Shown: positions 15,722-60,822 of the stretch, piece after piece
Layout: each line of letters opens with the position of its first letter
How positions within the stretch are numbered: the first letter of the stretch is position 1
From: Ornithinimicrobium sp. CNJ-824
GTDB lineage: Bacteria > Actinomycetota > Actinomycetes > Actinomycetales > Dermatophilaceae
Reading direction: 5' to 3'
Assembly (NCBI RefSeq): GCF_001942405.1
Contig: NZ_MKKA01000010.1
Location: forward strand, 1-64,000
Length of the DNA: 64,000 nt
Position numbers and translations under genes: made by a program
Notes under the pieces: model-generated
Databases searched by the model: none
What the model saw: the letters and a program-made list of their open reading frames with translations, nothing else
What the model was told of the DNA's origin: nothing

Positions 15722-16594
15722 TCAGCCCTCGGTGGTCTCGGCGGCGTCGTCGCCGCCGGTCGTGGAGATGTCCTTGCCGAAGTACTCCTCGGAGATCTCG
15801 GCGTAGGTGCCGTCCTCCTTGATCGTGGCCAGGGCCTCGTTGAGGGCGTCGCGCAGGGCGGTGTTGCCCTCCTCGACCGCGAAGGCGGGCTCCTCGGTGA
15901 AGACGGGCTCGCCGCACTCGACGAGGTCCAGGCCGGACTCCTGGATCTGGTAGAGGCCGACGTTGCGGTCGGTCATGGCGGCGTCCAGACGCCCGGTCGA
16001 GACGTCCTGCAGGGCCGTGACGTCGGAGGAGAAGGTGCGGATCTCGCCGACCCAGTCCCCGCCGTTCTCGTTCAGCCAGTCCTGGTAGGTCGTGCCGCTG
16101 GCCACCCCGATCGTCGGGGAGTCCAGCTCGGCGATGTCGGTGCACTCGGTGCCCGGGGCGACGAAGGCCTGGGCGCCGGAGACGTAGTAGCTGTCGGTGA
16201 AGTCGACCTGCTCGTCCCGCTCCTCGGTGGGCGTCATCGAGGCGATGAGCACGTCGTAGCGGTTGGCGCTGATGCCCTGGATGAGGGTGTCGAAGGCGCC
16301 GGTCTGGGCGTCGACCTCCAGGCCCATCTCCTCGGCGATCGCCACGCCGATGTCGTGGTCGAAGCCGGTGAGGGTGTTGCCCTCGAAGTAGCTGAACGGC
16401 TGGAACTCGCCGCTCATGGCGACGACCAGGGTGCCGTCGTCGATGAGGCCGAGGTCGTCGCCGGCCGCCGCCTCCCCGCCGGTGTCGTCCCCGCCGTCGG
16501 TGTCGTCCCCGCCGCAGGCGCTCAGGCCGAGCGCGACGGCGGCGGCAGCCACGATGGTGGTGGAGCGGCGGGTGGTCCGGGTGGTGCGTGTCAT
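15722..16594 (-). CDS. amino-acid ABC transporter substrate-binding lipoprotein
   Basis: This is a 290-residue lipoprotein. The signal sequence has a twin-basic start and a lipobox ending LSAC, with Cys near residue 27. A Gly/Asp linker follows, then a type 3 periplasmic-binding domain: [56 protein letters not shown]. This is the classical polar amino-acid-binding family (glutamine, arginine, cystine). The exact ligand is not clear; the pattern is nearest to cystine/glutamine binders. It is the first gene of the operon, with GAGGAGATGAG upstream of ATG 16594. Confidence 0.9.
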
Positions 16595-16796
16595 CTCAAC
16601 TCATCTCCTCGGGAGTGGACGTCGTTCGACTGCTCCCACCATAGGAGCCGTCGGTCGCCCGGCCGGGGACCCTTGACCGCGTGCGGCGTCCGCGGTATCC
16701 GCGCGCGCGCCTTGGTCGGCCCCGTGCCCCGCGCAAGCCCCGACCGGGACCGTTACCCGATCGTTACGGCCGTCCACCGCAGGGCGGCCGGACGCG

Positions 16797-51950: not shown

Positions 51951-54837
51951 TCAGTCGGTCACCCGCACGTAGCCGTGCGCACCGCGCTCGGCGTCGACCA
52001 TGATGTGCGACACGAGCGGGTAGTGCCCCGCCTCGGGGAAGGTCAGCTCGACGAACCCGCCCTGGGCCGCCTGCAGCCCGAGCGCCTGGGCCCCGGCGCC
52101 CTCGGCCGGGCCGTCGTCGTCGCCCAGCCGCCACGCCCCCTCCAGGTAGGTGCGGTCGAACTGCCCGCCGACGACGTGGAAGCTGGTCGGCCGGCTGGGG
52201 CCGGCGTCCAGCACCCAGATCCGGACCCGCTCGCCCACGCGGGCCTGGAGCATCTCGCCGGCGCTGCCGTACTGGTTGGCGATCCCGTTGAAGGTGACGA
52301 ACGCCGGCCGCTCGGCCGCGATCGCGTCCATGTCGACCTCCGCCGGGCCACCCTCCGCGCCGCCGCCGCCGACGCCGGAGCCGGGCTCCAGGTAGACCTC
52401 GGACTGGACCAGGACGTACTCCCGGTCGACCTCCGGCAGCCCCTCCTCGGGCTCGATGACGACGGCCCCGTGCATGCCGGCGGCGATGTGCGCGCTCATC
52501 GGCATGGTCGAGCAGTGGTACATCCAGATCCCGGCCCGCTCGGCGGTAAAGCGGTACTCCAGCGACTCGCCCGGCGCGATCGTGCGCATCGGCCGGTCCG
52601 GGGCGAGCGCACCGGCGTGGAAGTCGATCGAGTGGCCCATCGTGCCGTCGTTGACGAGGGTGATCTCGAAGACGTCGCCGACCCGCCCCCGCAGGGTGGG
52701 CCCGGGCACCTGCCCGTCGAACGTCCACCGGGTCTGGGTGATCCCCGGCGCGACCTCCAGCTCGACCTCCTCGGCGGTCAGGGTCAGCCGGTGCACCCGC
52801 TCCTGCGGCATCGGCGGCAGCACCGGGTCGACCACCTCCTCGACGCGGGCGTCCGGGTCGATCGCCGGCGTGGCCGGGGCGGGGTATGCCGTGCCGGCCC
52901 CGGGGGTGCCCCCGGCCGCGTCGCTGCCGTGCGCGGCGTGGCCGCCGTCCGGCGCAGCGCCGTCGGTCCCGTCGGCCGTCCCGGCCGCGTCCACGCCGTC
53001 CCCGCCGGCGACCGCGACGTCGAGCACCATCCCCATCTGGCGGTGGCCCACGATCGTGCACCAGCCTGGGTGGGACCGGTGACCACGCCGACGTCGATGC
53101 TCGCCGACTCGCCCGCGGCCAGGCGGGGGGTGCGTTCCCCGAGCAGCTGGAGGTCGTGGACGTTGGTGGCGTCGGTGTTGGTCAGCTCGACGACGAGCCG
53201 GTCGCCGAGCGGCACCTCGACGGTCGAGGGTTCGAACCGCATCCCCACGGCCTCGACCTGCACGGTCGTGGTCCGCCCGGTCGGGGTGACCTCCCCGCCG
53301 GCCGCCTCGCCCGGCCCCGCGCCGGCCACCTGGCCGGCCGCGGTCGTGCGCAGCCCGGCGGCCGCCGGGTCGATCGCCACGCCGACGGAGACGGCGAGCA
53401 GCAATGCCGACACGGCGGCGACGAGCTGGCCGCCGGACCAGACCGACGGCAGCCGGTCCGCCGCACCGGTCGCCAGGCCGGGGGTAGGGGTGGCGCCGGC
53501 GGGCCGTTCCCCGCGGGCCCGCGCCTCCTCGACCTCCCGCTTCGCCGCGACCGTCGCCCGGATCGCGCCGACCATGAGCGGGACGAACACGGCCAGCGCC
53601 ACGAGGACGAGGGCGGAGACGACCACCCGCACCCAGCTGGGCACCGGCAGCAGGGTCAGCGCCAGCCCGCCGTTGACGACGACCAGGCGGGCGGTGCCCC
53701 CCCGGTCGAACCACGCCTGGCCGGCCCGGACCACGGTCTTGCCGCCGCCCATGACCGAGGGGATGAGGTAGGACAGCGCCCCCGTCAGCAGCTGTGCGGC
53801 GAAGCGACGACGATCACGGCGCTCACCGGGCCGATGCCGTCGGCGAGCTCGGCCCAGGTCGACGTCGTCGCCAGCCGCCACAGCACCAGGCCGATGCCCA
53901 GCAGCCACCACAGCAGCGACAGGCCGACCGAGGCGGGGGCGAACTCCCGGGGAGGGGCGGTGCGCACGGGGGCGAGGGTCGCCGAGGCCCACCACAGCAG
54001 GGCGAGCGCGTAGCCCGCCAACCCCGCGAGGGTGAGCCAGCGCACGTCGGCCAGCGAGCCGGCGAGCAGGACCGCCAACGACCCCGCCAGCCCGGGCAGC
54101 GCCTGCCGGGCCCGCTGCTCGGCGCGCGGTCCGATGGGGGTGCGCAGCATCGTCGGCCACAGCGTCAGCAGGGTGCCGGTGACGGTGAGCCCCACCCAGC
54201 CGAGCACGTTGACGGTGATGTGCGCGAGGAGGAACCGGCCGTGCAGCCCGTCGTCCAGGCCGAGCGCCAGGGTGGCGCCCAGGGCGGCGCCGACGGGCAG
54301 GCAGACGGCGGCCGCGAGGTAGTAGCGCACCGTCACCCGGAACCGGCCGGGCAGGGCGGCCCGCAGCCGGCGCCACAGCTGCACGCCGTGCCAGCCGACC
54401 GCGACGGCCACCAGGGTCGCGCCGACGACGGTGAGCCACCAGGTGGCGGTGGGCACGCCGACGAGGGTGACGGTGGTGCCGACGAGCAGCAAGGTCAGCC
54501 GCCGGCTCTGGTCGCGCCGGTCGTCCAGGCCGGGCCGGGTCTTCAGCAGCGCCTGGGTGAAGTGGGTGCTCCACACCATGATCGAGTGGGTCAGCGCGCC
54601 GAGGAGCACGAGGTGCACCATGAGCCAGCGCGACCCGGGCAGGAACGGGTGCACCAGCGTCAGCAGCGCGGCCAGCGTCAGCCACAGCAGCCCGGGGTAG
54701 TCCCGCAGCGGCCACCGCCCGCGGGCCCCGGCGGGTGCGGGACGGCCCGGGGTGGCGGAGGGGTATGCCGCCGCCCCGGCGGGTGCGTCCGGCGCCGGAA
54801 CGGGCCGGGCGGGCTCGAGCTTCTGCGAGGGGGTCAT
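51951..54837 (-). CDS. nirK: membrane-fused copper nitrite reductase (frame breaks near 53072 and 53805)
   Basis: This fusion of about 962 residues reduces nitrite to NO. The first 510 residues contain roughly 12-13 membrane helices with several His (GALTHSIMVWSTH, LLAHITVNVLGWVG). A cupredoxin domain follows, with candidate type 1 copper ligands His (TNVHDLQ), Cys, His and Met (CTIVGHRQMGM). Then come two NirK cupredoxin domains: catalytic Asp/His in GHSIDFHAG, His-Cys-His-Met in MYHCSTMPMSAHIAAGMHG, and a type 2 copper His in LVSHIMV. One base restored at each of two points (GTCGTCGCTTCG, GGTCCCACCC) joins VIVVRFAAQLL and VTGPHPGWCTIV. ATG 54837 overlaps the upstream gene by four bases. Confidence 0.88.
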
Positions 54838-55969
54838 GGTCCTTCGAGGGTTCGGGCCGGGGTGCGGGTGGTCGGACGGGCGGGGCGACGGGTGGGGCGG
54901 CGGGCGGCCACCAGCGCCGTGGCCACCGCGGTGAGGACGAAGAGGAGCAGCGCGGCCACGTTGCCCGCGGCGCACCGGTCCAGGTCGCGACGGTACCCGT
55001 CGGGGCGGGGACGGTGCCGGAGAGCAGGGCGGCGGCCACCCGGACGAGCAGGGTGGCGTGCAGCAGGACGAGGGGGGCCCACATCCAGCCGCTGTAGGGC
55101 AGGCGCACGCGCAGCACGGCGGGCAGGATGACCGGCGCGTGGGCGAGCACCATCGACATGGCGTAGCCGAGGAAGACCGCGTGGACGACCACGTCGTAGA
55201 CGATGCCCTCCGGCCGGCCGACGACCAGCAGGAGCAGGCCGGCCAGGAGCAGCCAGGCGTAGCCGGCCAGGAGCGCGGCCGCGGCGAAGCGTGGCAGGCC
55301 GGTGGCGTGAATCGTCCGGCGGGCCACGTCGTGGCGCAGCAGCCAGGCCGTGAGCGCCAGCAGCAGCACGGCGGTGGCCCGGCCGCCCCACACCGGCCAC
55401 AGGAGGGCGGCCAGGCCCGACGCGGCGAGCGGGACGGTGAGCGCGACCAGCCGCCCGCCGGCCCCCGGGGGCATCGCCAGCCGGGCCAGCTCGACCCGCT
55501 CGGCCGCGATCGTCAGCACGACGAAGCCGACGAGGAGCAGGAGCACCTCGGCCACCGGCACCCGGGTCAGCAGCAGGGCCGCGCCGACGGCGAGCACCGC
55601 CCCCAGGGCCTGCACGGCGACGGTGGGGTCCTCGTTCCGGCGCCAGAGCACCGCATACACGAGCACGAGGACGAGCATCCCCTGGGCGAGCAGCAGGCGA
55701 CCCAGGAGCGGGTCGGCCAGCAGCACGAGGGCCAGCGCGCCAGCGCCCAGCAGCCCGGGGGCGAGCAGCCCCCAGGGGCGGCGCAGGGCCACCGCCCGCT
55801 CGAGGGCGATGACCGTGCCGAGGAAGCCGAGCACCATGAGCGAGCCGTGGAGCGCGGCGAGCCGGGCGCTGCCCGCCGGGGCCGGCACCCCGGCGAGGGT
55901 GAGGGCGGCGTCCAGCCCGGCCAGCAGGGCGAGCCCGCCAGGGAGCAGGAGCAGGGGGGCGGACCTCAC
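54834..55969 (-). CDS. NnrS-like multi-helix membrane protein (frame break near 54970)
   Basis: This is a membrane protein of about 378 residues with 11-12 helices. HGSLMVLGFLGTVIALERAVAL, HAVFLGYAMSMVLAHAPVILPAVL and the overall pattern resemble NnrS-type proteins that accompany denitrification genes and are linked to NO or metal stress. The conserved histidines in membrane segments suggest heme and copper binding, which is inference. The last helix is split by one missing G in GGTGCGCCGCGG; restored it reads TGAAGNVAALLLFVLT. Both ends overlap neighbours by four bases, so it is strictly cotranslated with the hemerythrin and NirK. Confidence 0.72.
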
Positions 55970-56400
55970 GGGGCGGGGGTGGCTCCGTCGACCTCGTCCC
56001 AGTCGGGACCGTCCAGGGCGATCGCCGAGGCGGGGAAGAGCCCGTTGTCCTCCCGGTCGATGTGGTGGCGCAGGTCGTGCCAGAACTCCTCGAACCGGTC
56101 GTGGTCCCCGGCGCGCACGGCCGCGAGCTGGTCGTCGAGGGTGGTGTGCTCGGCGCAGAGGCTGTCGATGTGCTCGGTGAACTCCTCCTGGCGGCGCATC
56201 ACCGAGAAGAGGCCGACCTCCTCGGCCTGCGTGTGCGGGGAGAGCAGCGCGGCGACCGCGTCGCACGCGCGCTCCACCCCCGCGTGGTCGCCGCCCTCGA
56301 CGGCCCGGCGCAGCCGGCCTGCGGCGTTGACGATCTCGGTGTGCTCGGCCATGAAGCGGCCGATCACCGCGATCGACTCGCAGCCGCAGTAGGTGCACAT
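55966..56400 (-). CDS. hemerythrin HHE-domain protein
   Basis: This is a 144-residue four-helix diiron protein. The ligand pattern is clear: FMAEHTEIV, LLSPHTQAEEVGLFSVM, LCAEHTTLDDQL and WHDLRHHIDREDNGLFP. Such proteins bind oxygen or NO, or repair damaged iron centres (YtfE/RIC type). The N-terminus MCTYCGCES has an unusual Cys-x2-Cys-x-Cys cluster, echoed by Cys residues in the preceding DUF2249 gene. It overlaps both neighbours by four bases in the nitrite reductase operon. Confidence 0.88.
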   Translation of the reverse strand: MCTYCGCESIAVIGRFMAEHTEIVNAAGRLRRAVEGGDHAGVERACDAVAALLSPHTQAEEVGLFSVMRRQEEFTEHIDSLCAEHTTLDDQLAAVRAGDHDRFEEFWHDLRHHIDREDNGLFPASAIALDGPDWDEVDGATPAP

Positions 56401-56705
56401 CAGGCGTGGCGGGTGAACCGCAGCGTCCAGGCCTCGGGGCCGCGCTCGAGGTACTCGTGCGCGACGGCTTTCCCCTCGCGCTCGGCGAGCTGGGCCAGCA
56501 GGGGCAGCGGGTCGTGATCGGCCACGAGGTCCATCTGCTGCCCGGGGCGCAGGCCGCCGATGGCGCCGAAGATGCTGGCGTGGCGGACGGCGTGCGGGAT
56601 GACGCGGACGTCCAGGGCGGGGATGCCCTCGTCGGCGCAGCCGCAGGCGCACCCGCCGTCGCGGACCTGGGTGACGTCGAGCTGGGTGCGAGCGGTGTCG
56701 CTCAT
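56400..56705 (-). CDS. DUF2249 domain protein (SirA/TusA-like fold)
   Basis: This is a 101-residue protein. After a short N-terminus with three cysteines (GGCACGCAD), the DUF2249 core follows: LDVRVIPHAVRHASIFGAIGGL in pieces, PGQQMDLVADHDPLPLLAQL and GPEAWTLRFTRHA. DUF2249 proteins occur with hemerythrins in denitrification clusters and are suspected to handle iron, heme or sulfur, but no activity is proven as far as I know. GAGGAG precedes ATG 56705. It is the first gene of the DUF2249-hemerythrin-NnrS-like-nirK operon. Confidence 0.85.
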   Translation of the reverse strand: MSDTARTQLDVTQVRDGGCACGCADEGIPALDVRVIPHAVRHASIFGAIGGLRPGQQMDLVADHDPLPLLAQLAEREGKAVAHEYLERGPEAWTLRFTRHA

Positions 56706-56847: not shown

Positions 56848-58242
56848 TCAGCTGGGCTTCGGGGCCCCCGGACGGGCGTAGCGCCACCAGGTGATGCCCA
56901 CGCACATCACGGCGAAGACCAGGCCGATGACGTAGAAGATCGTCGGGGTCATCAGGGTCAGGCCGATGCCGAAGAAGAACGGGCCGAAGGCCGCGATCGC
57001 CGCCGTCCAGCCGATGACACCACCGGCCTGGCGCCGCTCGAAGATCATCGGCATCTGCTTGAAGGTCGAGGCGTTGCCGATCCCGGCGAAGAGGAAGATC
57101 GCCAGCATGCCCCACAGGAACCGGTCGAAGCCGGCATCCAGGGTCGCGGCCGAGGTGGTGTCGGGCACCAGGGCGGTGATGGTGAAGCCGATCGAGGCGA
57201 TCAGACCGATCCCGGAGATGAGCGTCCAGAGCGCGCCGCCCATCTTGTCGGTCAGCGGGGAGAACAGCACGCGGGCCCCGGCGCCGACGAGCGGTCCGAG
57301 GAAGACGAACTTGACCGCCTCGGGCACCTCGTAGTTCTCGATGAGCAGCTGGGCGCTCTCCCCGGCGCCCTGGACGATCTCCGGGTTGCCGGCGCCGTAG
57401 AGGTTCTTCATGAGGAGGCCGAACTGGGCCGACAGCCCCGAGAAGGTGCCGAAGGTCATGATGTAGAGCAGGGTCATGTACCAGGTGTCGGGGTTGGAGA
57501 AGATGTCGAACTGCTGCTTGATGTTGGCGGTGACCGGCACCGACTTCAGCGCCAGCCACGCCCAGCCGGCCCCGACGAGGACGAAGGGGATCCAGAAGAA
57601 GGCGGCGTTCTGGTACCAGACCTCCTGGTTGGCCTGACCGGCCAGCTCCATCATCTGGCTGTTGCCCAGGAAGCCCAGCATGGAGAAGCCGATGAGCCAG
57701 GGGGTCAGCAGCTGGACCAGGGAGACGCCGAAGTTGCCCAGGCCGGCCTGCAGGCCCAGGGCCGTGCCCTGGAGCCGCTTGGGGAAGAAGTAGGAGGTGC
57801 TGGGCATGAACCCGGAGAACGCCCCGCCCCCGATGCCGGCGAGGAAGGCCAGCACCATGAGCTCCCAGTAGGGCGCGGTCGGGGCCTGCACCCGCACGCC
57901 CCAGCCCAGCAGCGGGAAGAACAGCAGGCCAGTGGTCAGGGCCACCATCGCCCGGGTGCCCATGATCGGCGGCAGCACCATCCAGACGATCCGCAGCAGA
58001 CCGGCGGCCAGGCCAGGCATCGCGGCCATCCAGTAGAGCTGGGTCTGGGTGAAGGAGTAGCCGATGTCGTTGAGCTTGGGGATGATCGCGCTGGGCAGGA
58101 ACCAGGTGACGAAGGCCAGGGTCAGCGTGAACGTCGTGATCCACAGCGTCTGCCAGGCCAGGCCCTTGTCCCAGGTGTCCTCGTTCTCGGGGTCCCAGTC
58201 CTGCAGCCAGCGGCTGCCGATGCGGCGGGAGTCGGTGGTCAT
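56848..58242 (-). CDS. narK: NarK-type nitrate/nitrite transporter (second of a tandem pair)
   Basis: This is a 464-residue, twelve-helix MFS carrier. WLQDWDPENEDTWDKG before helix 1 is the NarK2-like N-terminal signature. GFMPSTSYFFPKRLQGTALGLQAGLGNFGVS in pieces is the nitrate signature, and a second nitrate signature appears as FAGIGNASTFKQMPMIF. The NarK2 type usually exchanges nitrate for nitrite. ATG 58242 overlaps the first narK by four bases, with AGGAGG inside its end. Fused NarK1-NarK2 proteins are known in Paracoccus; here they are separate but translationally coupled. Confidence 0.92.
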   Translation of the reverse strand: MTTDSRRIGSRWLQDWDPENEDTWDKGLAWQTLWITTFTLTLAFVTWFLPSAIIPKLNDIGYSFTQTQLYWMAAMPGLAAGLLRIVWMVLPPIMGTRAMVALTTGLLFFPLLGWGVRVQAPTAPYWELMVLAFLAGIGGGAFSGFMPSTSYFFPKRLQGTALGLQAGLGNFGVSLVQLLTPWLIGFSMLGFLGNSQMMELAGQANQEVWYQNAAFFWIPFVLVGAGWAWLALKSVPVTANIKQQFDIFSNPDTWYMTLLYIMTFGTFSGLSAQFGLLMKNLYGAGNPEIVQGAGESAQLLIENYEVPEAVKFVFLGPLVGAGARVLFSPLTDKMGGALWTLISGIGLIASIGFTITALVPDTTSAATLDAGFDRFLWGMLAIFLFAGIGNASTFKQMPMIFERRQAGGVIGWTAAIAAFGPFFFGIGLTLMTPTIFYVIGLVFAVMCVGITWWRYARPGAPKPS

Positions 58243-59602
58243 GCGCGGGCCTCCTGGACGGATCCGGTCGGGTGGGGGGCGGGCTCGTCGAGCTTGTCGG
58301 CGACCTCGGGGGAGCGCTCGTGCAGCATCCGCACGACCGTCAGGTGCATCCACAGGAGGCAGACGGCCACGAGGACGAAGAGCACGAAGAACGTGGACGT
58401 GGGGAACCCGGTCCACACCTTGGTGTAGGCGAACAGGGGAGGAAGAATGAACCCGCCCAGGCCGCCGAGCATGCCGACGAGGCCGCCGACCGGCCCGACG
58501 TTGCCCGGGAAGTACTCCGGGATGTGCTTGTAGACCGCGGCCTTGCCCACGCCCATCGAGCAGCCGAGGAGGAAGAGCAGGACGGTGAACGGCACGATGT
58601 GCATCGCGTAGGCCAGGTGCTCGGTGCTGGTGCCGTCGGCGTGGTTGATGACGATGTGCCCGTTGGGCATCATGAGGACGCCCGTCGTGGCGAGCATGAC
58701 GAAGAAGGTGCCGTACATCGCCTTGCGGGCGCCCCAGCGGTCGGAGAACCAGCCGCCGACCGGGCGCAGCAGCGAGGCCGGGAAGATGAACAGCGCGGTC
58801 AGCAGGCCCGCGGTCGTCAGCGAGACGTCGAAGTTGTCCATGTAGTACAGGGGCAGCCAGGCCGAGAGGGCCACGTAGGCGCCGAACACCGCGACGTAGT
58901 AGAGGCTGAACCGCCACACCCGCAGCTGGCGCAGGGGCGTGAGCATCTCGGCCAGGCTCTTGCTGGCGCCGGGCATCCGGTCGACCTTGGGGGTGAGGAA
59001 CCACACCGCGACGGCCATGAGCAGCAGCAGGACGCCGTAGACGACCGGGATGAGGCGCCAGCCGCCCTGCACGCCGAGGGCGTAGGTGGTGCCGGCGGTG
59101 GCCAGGATGATCGGCGGGCCGATGAACTTGGTCACCGAGGCGCCGACGTTGCCGGCCCCGAACAGCCCGAGGGCGAAGCCCTGCCGTTCGCGGGGGGCCC
59201 AGGCGGCGTTCCAGGCGATGCCCACGCTGAAGGAGTTGCCCGCGAAGCCGACGAGGAAGGCCAGGGCGAGCAGCATGCCGTAGCTGTCGGCGCGGCTGAC
59301 GAGGAAGGCCGGGATCGCGGTGAGGGCCAGCATGGCGGTGAAGACCTTGCGGCCGCCGATCCGGTCGGCCAGCATGCCCGCCGGCAGGCGCCACATCGAG
59401 CCGTTGAGGACCGCGACCGCCGAGACCCAGGACAGCTGGGTGTCGGTGAGCCCGAACTCGTCCTTGATCGGCTTGCCGAGGATGCCGAACATCAGCCAGA
59501 CGGCGAACATGAGGGTGAACGCCACGGTGGACGTCCACATGACCCGGTTGGCCCCGGACCGCTGGGCCGGGTCCGTCCGGCCGGCGACGCGGTGGTCGTC
59601 AT
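58239..59602 (-). CDS. narK: NarK-type nitrate transporter (first of a tandem pair; frame break near 59552)
   Basis: This MFS carrier of about 454 residues is NarK1-like, usually a nitrate/proton symporter. FTLMFAVWLMFGILGKPIKDEFGL is helix 1, FAGNSFSVGIAWNAAWAPRERQGFALGLFGAGNVG in pieces is the first nitrate signature, and GCSMGVGKAAVYKHIPEYFPGNVG contains the second. The start ATG 59602 with AGGAG upstream is separated from the main frame by one missing base near GGGGCCAACC; restored, ANRVMWTSTVAFT follows. Without this repair, the frame would begin at 59540. Upstream lies the shared control region with the nar regulator. Confidence 0.9.
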
Positions 59603-59862: not shown

Positions 59863-60822
59863 ATGGGAGCAGCCGAGCACATGGGACGCGACGGGGCGTT
59901 CCTGCTCACCTCCGCCGTGCGACGCTCGATCGTCGACCACCTCGTCGGTCTCCCGCGCCTGGCCGTCGAGGGCCGTCCCACCCGCGACGGCGGGATGACG
60001 GCGGCCGAGCTCGGCACCGTGCTGGGCCTGCACAGCACCACCGTCCGCTTCCACCTCGACCAGCTCGTCTCCGCCGGACTCGTGGGCAGCCACTTCGTGC
60101 GCAGCGGGGGCGCCGGCCGGCCGGCCAAGCGCTACTTCGTCGTGGAGGGCGAGCTGGGCCCCGTGGCCCGGGGCGGCGGGGACAGCGGCCACTACAAGGT
60201 GCTCGCGACCCTCCTGGCCGGCGCTCTCGACCCCTCGGACGAGGGCCGGCTCACCCCGGAGGAGGCCGGTGCGGAGTGGGTCCGCGACCGGCTCGAGCAC
60301 GGCGACGACCACAGGCTGCTCGAGGATGGCGGACCGCCGCCGCCGGCCGGGACCTCCGGGGAGTGGATGGCCAAGGTCGGTGGCATCGTCGACCTGCTCC
60401 AGGAGTGGGGCTACACCCCCGACCTGTCCCTGAGCGGGCGCGAGGGGGACGTGACGCTCACCCTGCGCGAGTGCCCCTTCCTCGACCTGGCCCGCGTGCA
60501 CCCCGAGGTCGTCTGCGGTGTCCACCGCGGCCTGCTCAAGGGGGCCCTGGACGCGGCCGGCGAGCCGGACGCCGGGGTCAGCCTGCGCCCGTTCGTCGGA
60601 CCCGGGACCTGCCACGCCGTGGTGCTGCGGCACGCCACCCCGCCCGAGGAGCCGATCGTCCCCGGGCCCGGCCGCTGGGCCGCCCCGCCCCGTCCGGCCG
60701 CGGCCGCCCCCGACCCGCCGGGGCCCGTCCTCGACCCGCTGCCCGCGGCGGACGAGCACGACATACCTCCGCCCACGACCGACCGACCCCCGACCCCACC
60801 GCACCAGGAGAACCCCGCATGA
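59863..60822 (+). CDS. ArsR/SufR-like HTH regulator with conserved cysteines
   Basis: This is a 319-residue regulator. A winged helix occupies about residues 15-95 (MTAAELGTVLGLHSTTVRFHLDQL; wing GAGRPAKRYFVV). The middle domain carries Cys204 and Cys218 in ECPFLDLARVHPEVVCGVHRGL and Cys250 in GPGTCHAVV, a SufR-like arrangement that binds an Fe-S cluster in relatives. The last 60 residues are Pro/Ala-rich. Position between narK and narG, and the overlap of its stop with narG, suggest a sensor of oxygen, NO or nitrite status for this cluster; cluster binding is inference. Confidence 0.85.
   Translation: MGAAEHMGRDGAFLLTSAVRRSIVDHLVGLPRLAVEGRPTRDGGMTAAELGTVLGLHSTTVRFHLDQLVSAGLVGSHFVRSGGAGRPAKRYFVVEGELGPVARGGGDSGHYKVLATLLAGALDPSDEGRLTPEEAGAEWVRDRLEHGDDHRLLEDGGPPPPAGTSGEWMAKVGGIVDLLQEWGYTPDLSLSGREGDVTLTLRECPFLDLARVHPEVVCGVHRGLLKGALDAAGEPDAGVSLRPFVGPGTCHAVVLRHATPPEEPIVPGPGRWAAPPRPAAAAPDPPGPVLDPLPAADEHDIPPPTTDRPPTPPHQENPA

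Follow-up and report, generated by a model that had tools for sequence, protein, structure and literature searches.

How a nitrite reductase that carries its own membrane domain obtains its electrons is the question raised by a minus-strand gene of the actinobacterium Ornithinimicrobium sp. CNJ-824. The gene lies in the first 64,000 nucleotides of contig NZ_MKKA01000010.1 (the whole of this stretch is called the window below), part of an assembly of 3.45 Mb in 62 contigs that is 92.5% complete. It is a fused nirK, whose product joins a polytopic membrane module, a cupredoxin and a two-domain copper nitrite reductase (NirK). We propose that it encodes a membrane-anchored long actinobacterial NirK in which a quinol-fed, probably heme-bearing module passes electrons to the cupredoxin and from there to NirK, a reading to which we assign a probability of roughly 0.55. 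The fusion architecture is confirmed but already known; what we add concerns the membrane module.

The gene is interrupted in this assembly. Both frame breaks described in an earlier note, made from the sequence alone, were found again: one near 53805, where a profile search of the organism's own genome splits the match at 53806/53803, and one directly upstream of the cupredoxin Cys at 53060, between the first two cupredoxin ligands. To these must be added a third near 55000, in the adjacent NnrS-like gene, which that note had missed. No base was restored at the breaks, and the gene pieces were searched separately. The NirK piece matches relatives of the same genus at 60-83% identity, and each of the 23 loci fetched from that genus has an open frame of 917-1323 codons, stop to stop, across its NirK match. 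Used alone as query, the membrane part found 462 relatives. In 73 of the best 80, all of them named loci, a single open frame encodes membrane part, cupredoxin and NirK. Of the other seven, two (L108 and L120) reach a contig edge after the membrane part and cupredoxin; L077 and L131 contain masked letters, the cupredoxin and NirK of L131 following in a separate frame; the frame of L134 extends no further than the membrane part; and L118 (853-2106) and L127 (7288-8592) are membrane-only genes, with no NirK in the fetched stretch, each located just after a regulator of the family encoded at 59863-60822 in the window. Because unbroken copies are common in relatives, the breaks in nirK and in the NnrS-like gene are taken as probable sequencing errors. 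The 73 intact frames thus bear out the single protein that the earlier note had assembled across the breaks, and they answer its caution that a true stop might separate the membrane part from the NirK part. Two rows with a partial or absent membrane part (L058 and L059) were dropped from a set of 33, leaving 31. The same assembly holds a second fused nirK copy (L005, contig C59, 158955-161560), the NirK part of which is frame-broken too. One nirK per genome is listed for 28 actinobacteria in the accessible part of a published survey (PMC4770552).

A check of codons finds in the window all seven NirK copper ligands, the catalytic Asp and His, and the His-Cys-His-Met set of the cupredoxin, to which we assign what we take to be their usual ligand roles; by its type 1 and type 2 ligands and catalytic residues the C-terminal part belongs to NirK. 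Conservation was counted in 74 intact rows, that is, the 80 loci minus the 7 that lack a full three-module frame or contain masked letters, plus L036. Twelve of the 13 copper-site and catalytic positions are invariant (74/74), the four ligands of the extra type 1 cupredoxin included, which upholds the complete set read in the earlier note. The type 1 axial Met of NirK (window 52475-52473) varies, with Leu instead in 10 of these rows and Met kept in the other 64; a Met to Leu exchange at a type 1 copper is known to shift the copper potential. As far as codons and alignments tell, the three modules form one chain in intact relatives and the copper ligand sets are complete in the window.

The novelty that had been seen in this fusion does not stand, since the layout is already in print (PMC4770552; PMC5338063, both in their accessible parts). 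Decleyre et al. 2016 reported it in actinobacteria, with a membrane part "of unknown function"; their long NirK (Propionibacterium acnes type, about 900 amino acids) has a 400-residue membrane domain, a cupredoxin with the motif C-x4-H-x4-M and a C-terminal NirK, and the accessible text reveals no essential difference from the window's protein and makes no mention of a stand-alone form of the membrane part (PMC4770552). Likewise the NirK of Corynebacterium pseudotuberculosis, from another genus, has 882 residues, an N-terminal region of about 500 residues and 13 predicted helices, the cofactor of its membrane part being unaddressed in the accessible text (PMC5338063). The window fits this long actinobacterial type, with the three modules present as pieces here. 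To our knowledge the NirK of Hyphomicrobium denitrificans is devoid of a membrane module. It shares with the window's protein an extra cupredoxin ahead of NirK (PMC4770552, accessible part). In a literature search, mostly without subscription papers and in part limited to portions of the texts, no description of the identity or cofactor of the membrane domain was found.

Hydropathy averaged over the fused relatives gives about 13 membrane helices, in agreement with the 12-13 counted earlier; a single threshold yields 18 stretches, one of them spanning two helices, and the number was settled at 13 by merging peaks by eye. Lys and Arg together number 3.5-6.3 in the loops after helices 2, 4, 6, 8, 10 and 12 and 0.1-1.4 in those outer loops that can be distinguished. 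From this alternation of charge we predict that the N-terminus is inside and the C-terminus outside, which would place cupredoxin and NirK on the outer face.

Residue conservation was assessed in 136 rows, numbered after the reference L036: 28 from stand-alone modules (see below) and 108 from fused proteins, which include near-copies, as genomes of the genus recur in two collections. His208 is present in every row (108/108 fused, 28/28 stand-alone) and His77 in 135 (107/108 fused, with one gap, and 28/28 stand-alone), which substantiates the intramembrane His residues of the earlier note. Arg167 (133/136), Tyr175 (134/136) and Gln351 in helix 10 (133/136) are nearly as constant. His152 marks the fused forms (107/108), Leu, Ala and others leading at this position in the 28 stand-alone rows, and His86 and His94 occur in 97/108 and 94/108 fused rows. 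His conserved at 90% sits only in helices 1/2, 2, 4 and 6, and the membrane-part columns conserved at this level hold no Cys and a single Met (232).

Searches of Pfam, NCBIfam and PDB sequences with the module gave nothing of weight, with 1 of 28 members matching ccoN at 0.0039. A plasmid search with a stand-alone module gave no match; with the full fusion, the 15 records listed of 776 match only in the NirK part. In profile-profile comparisons with 44 oxidase subunit I sequences and 23 NnrS-like proteins, the combined profile of all module rows matches oxidase subunit I with a probability of 84.8 (E 6.6e-6) and the NnrS-like profile with 80.7 over 316 columns, against 0.1-1.6 for reversed oxidases, reversed NnrS-like proteins, and a transporter family and its reverse. 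Two usable clusters of further control families scored 0.1 each. Heme-copper oxidase subunit I (COX1) consists of three four-helix repeats, and comparison of four-helix repeats within the module gave 80.5 for 1 versus 2, 44.4 for 1 versus 3 and 16.4 for 2 versus 3 (reversed, 0.1-0.5). The best module-oxidase alignment sets His208 on the heme-ligating His of helix II and the second-best on helix X. When the Pfam COX1 profile was run over 60 whole genomes, it matched module loci in G058 (E 4.5e-6) and G084 (E 2.0e-5), both below the curated cut-off. In oxidases the active-site His residues are located in helices 6, 7 and 10. This set was not found in the module, which, unlike COX1, conserves no His in helix 7 or helix 10 and carries Gln351 in helix 10. 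The repeats and profile matches favour an oxidase-like three-repeat bundle devoid of the catalytic His set, and the module is likely, on these sequence comparisons, a three-repeat, 12-plus-1-helix relative of both heme-copper oxidase subunit I and the NnrS-like protein. A four-helix protein of G060 (L265, 1619-2032, minus strand) matches both COX1 (9.9e-8) and the module (6.3e-9) and may represent one isolated repeat of such a bundle.

Several results weigh against this kinship and keep the strength of the oxidase link at moderate. With stand-alone rows only, the probabilities fall to 58.5 (oxidase) and 70.6 (NnrS-like), with 63 fused rows only to 45.3 and, for NnrS-like, 53.0 (36.8 with a smaller profile pair), while the highest control across the three module profiles reaches 5.7; the NnrS-like profile itself scores 6.4 against oxidases. 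Single repeats compare unevenly with oxidases (repeat 2, 74.5; repeats 1 and 3, only 2.6 and 10.7). The pairing of the two His residues is a guess, and the repeat alignment puts His77 two positions from His208. COX1 also matches an unrelated-looking membrane protein in G069 (1.8e-4), and Pfam scans of 48 module members returned no COX1. Single-sequence comparisons are weak, given their low medians (0.1 for a background of 83 single membrane proteins, 0.3 for the oxidases and 0.7 for the NnrS-like proteins, the rows being related); the best values were 1.8, 10.4 (n=44) and 20.6 (n=23), respectively, which puts both families above the background.

The module also exists by itself. Searches covered 396 genomes drawn across Actinomycetota, of which 56 match the module profile. 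The 40 loci fetched from the longer list of matches comprise 4 fusions, all of the window's class, and 36 with no NirK in the module frame, all from the same phylum but outside the window's class. In 7 of these 36 (L180, L189, L190, L194, L197, L200 and L201) a NirK lies within about 600 bp of the module. In L201 and L189 three adjacent frames encode the module, a small cupredoxin and NirK, the cupredoxin of L189 being seen only in a six-frame search; this arrangement is the fused protein taken apart. Elsewhere the cupredoxin is placed ahead of NirK (L180, L194) or behind it (L190, L200), and the NirK partners in L190 and L200 score above the TIGR02376 cut-off. An NnrS-like gene immediately precedes the stand-alone module in L202 and L211. 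A long NirK match occurs in 40 of the 56 genomes with the module versus 12 of the 340 without it, and still in 32 of 47 when the nine genomes of the fusion clade are left out; since the sampled genomes are related, a Fisher p value cannot be read here as a real probability. The 47 module genomes span 18 families, 16 of them also with a long NirK, and six families have NirK and no module. Genome comparison thus shows that, outside the window's class, the module is a protein of its own with a genomic link to NirK. A tree was built from 28 stand-alone rows and the 45 fused rows left after thinning (73 in all). It unites the fused rows in a single clade (support 100/95), for which one fusion event is the simplest reading; the clade also contains one stand-alone row, L214, and the tree program cautions that there are long branches among the stand-alone rows.

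On this basis we propose the following route. His77 and His208, which lie close to the outer face, would be the ligands of a single heme b or of another redox metal. In oxidases the cupredoxin copper domain sits over a low-spin heme; by analogy, the outer His pair may hold the heme beneath the attached cupredoxin. Menaquinol would be oxidised in or beside the module, electrons would run outward from the heme to the cupredoxin copper, the NirK type 1 copper and the type 2 copper, and nitrite would be reduced to nitric oxide (NO) at the last of these. Unlike that of an oxidase, the outer cupredoxin would receive electrons, not give them. The extra His of the fused forms (His152, with His86 or His94) may provide a second site. 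The NnrS-like protein may pair with the module as its membrane partner, and the hemerythrin and DUF2249 proteins encoded beside it may handle NO or iron-centre damage, a role associated with hemerythrin- and DUF2249-like families.

Further points count against a quinol-fed NirK of this kind. Our observations are of anatomy and genomic linkage, from which we infer the heme, the oxidation of quinol and the flow of electrons; the direct electron route suggested in the earlier note is a sensible guess, and direct quinol oxidation a step that we infer with it. Linkage is incomplete, since 16 of the 56 module genomes have no long NirK match and 12 genomes have NirK without the module. In L181 (8100-9713, minus strand) a stand-alone module stands beside a cupredoxin-multicopper oxidase whose best family match is not NirK, a pairing that hints at a wider use of the module. 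The window's NirK piece scores 188.8 bits against TIGR02376, below the curated cut-off of 296.3; so do the intact relative L075 (189.2 bits) and the separate NirKs of L180, L194 and L201, and we read such a score as that of a divergent NirK. Finally, the accessible part of the actinobacterial survey, citing others, holds that an N-terminal cupredoxin is too distant from the core for effective transfer and that a copper-site mutant was more active (PMC4770552).

A rival reading makes the module an anchor or scaffold only, with a separate cytochrome bcc complex or carrier feeding the extracellular cupredoxin. In its favour, Actinobacteria attach many exported proteins to their membrane. Some actinobacterial NirKs have the cupredoxin without a membrane domain (PMC4770552, accessible part). 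About 13 helices, however, far exceed the needs of an anchor; two intramembrane His residues are conserved in 135/136 and 136/136 rows, and the module occurs alone beside NirK genes. We regard a mere anchor as unlikely. The oxidase partner of L181, a copper protein other than NirK, would suit a transporter that loads copper into the cupredoxin and NirK, and intramembrane His can bind copper. Against such a loader stand the want of any Cys, and the presence of one Met only, among the 90%-conserved membrane-part columns, and the profile similarity to oxidase subunit I, in a comparison set that held no copper transporters; we think it less likely again than the anchor. That the module itself reduces NO, making a nitrite-to-nitrous-oxide enzyme, could appeal to a statement on the superfamily in the accessible part of PMC8756737. 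As no His is conserved at 90% in helices 7-12, the active-site His set of oxidases and NO reductases is missing, and we consider this activity very improbable. The quinol-fed module remains the reading that we favour.

The fused nirK is the last of four minus-strand genes in a row (Table 1), preceded by those for DUF2249, hemerythrin and NnrS-like proteins. Their stops and starts overlap (TGATG, GTGA and ATGA at the junctions), which makes translational coupling plausible; a scan for promoters and terminators found none. The coupled unit of the earlier note is therefore supported in the window, yet it is not constant in relatives. Among 59 loci with enough sequence in the 4 kb upstream of the fusion, 49 have the NnrS-like gene, 28 DUF2249, 22 hemerythrin, 17 all three and 3 none, the DUF2249 and hemerythrin counts being lower bounds from single-sequence profiles.

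Table 1. Positions of the fused nirK, its modules and candidate ligands, and of neighbouring genes in the window.
Feature	Positions	Strand	Basis
Fused nirK gene: membrane module of about 13 helices, cupredoxin and two-domain NirK; two frame breaks in this assembly	51951..54837	-	start ATG 54837, stop TGA ending at 51951
Membrane module, without Pfam family; frame break near 53805	53369..54723	-	profile match to relatives; topology of relatives
NirK catalytic part: type 1 (His, Cys, His, Met) and type 2 (three His) ligands, Asp, His	51954..52799	-	TIGR02376 below cut-off, codons, conservation
N-terminal cupredoxin copper ligands: His 53158-53156, Cys 53060-53058, His 53045-53043, Met 53030-53028	53028..53158	-	codons; 74/74 in relatives
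His77 codon, outer end of helix 2, candidate heme ligand	54613..54615	-	conservation and codon
His208 codon, outer end of helix 6, candidate heme ligand	54220..54222	-	conservation and codon
His152 codon, inner end of helix 4, mark of fused forms	54388..54390	-	conservation and codon
NnrS-like membrane protein gene, start GTG 55969; frame break near 55000	54834..55969	-	
Hemerythrin-domain protein, start ATG 56400	55966..56400	-	PF01814 2.4e-17
DUF2249 protein, start ATG 56705	56400..56705	-	PF10006 3.6e-26
Helix-turn-helix regulator directly upstream of nitrate-reductase-like frame	59863..60822	+	PF12840 1e-9

The label NnrS-like is used here for convenience. NnrS is a polytopic membrane protein linked to denitrification; its Pfam model, PF05940, was matched by 0 of 20 relatives of the neighbour and by no relative of the module, and it found no match in the organism's own genome or in control genomes. 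Relatives of the neighbour gave no Pfam match of weight, and an NnrS identity for 54834-55969 was not kept. The Cys-rich hemerythrin of the earlier note is indeed a Pfam Hemerythrin and begins MCTYCGCE. In a haloarchaeon, DUF2249 genes are induced under denitrifying conditions, some lying near nirK and nor, and two Thermus DUF2249 proteins have been proposed as nitrate sensors (PMC11218638, accessible part).

Regulators of the 59863-60822 family lie near several stand-alone modules, so the window's member may control nitrite respiration; it has a Cys-bearing C-terminal motif, CPFLDLARVHPEVVC. The frame downstream of it is presumably a nitrate reductase, judged by its translation. Membrane transporter frames occupy 56848-59540 on the minus strand, between the nirK unit and that frame; the one at 58239-59540 matches Pfam MFS_1, and by position they are likely for nitrate or nitrite. 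At 16554-16643 on the plus strand ARAGORN places a tRNA whose identity it leaves undefined and whose anticodon has two bases.

More tentatively, and with appreciably less confidence than in the electron route proposed above, the module may, together with the NnrS-like protein, represent a branch of the heme-copper oxidase superfamily that has yet to be described, that lacks an oxygen- or NO-reducing site and that works in reverse, as a quinol:cupredoxin oxidoreductase; the module would be a separate subunit for NirK in Actinomycetota outside the window's class, and in Actinomycetes it would have been fused once to cupredoxin-NirK to give a one-chain quinol:nitrite reductase. For the electron supply of actinobacterial NirK, the stand-alone relatives beside NirK provide a partner open to testing and small proteins for purification. 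Should the module carry heme, it would link the quinol pool to nitrite in a new way, with neither cytochrome bc1 nor a soluble carrier, and, if the proposal is true, an oxidase-like module would here run electrons outwards to a cupredoxin.

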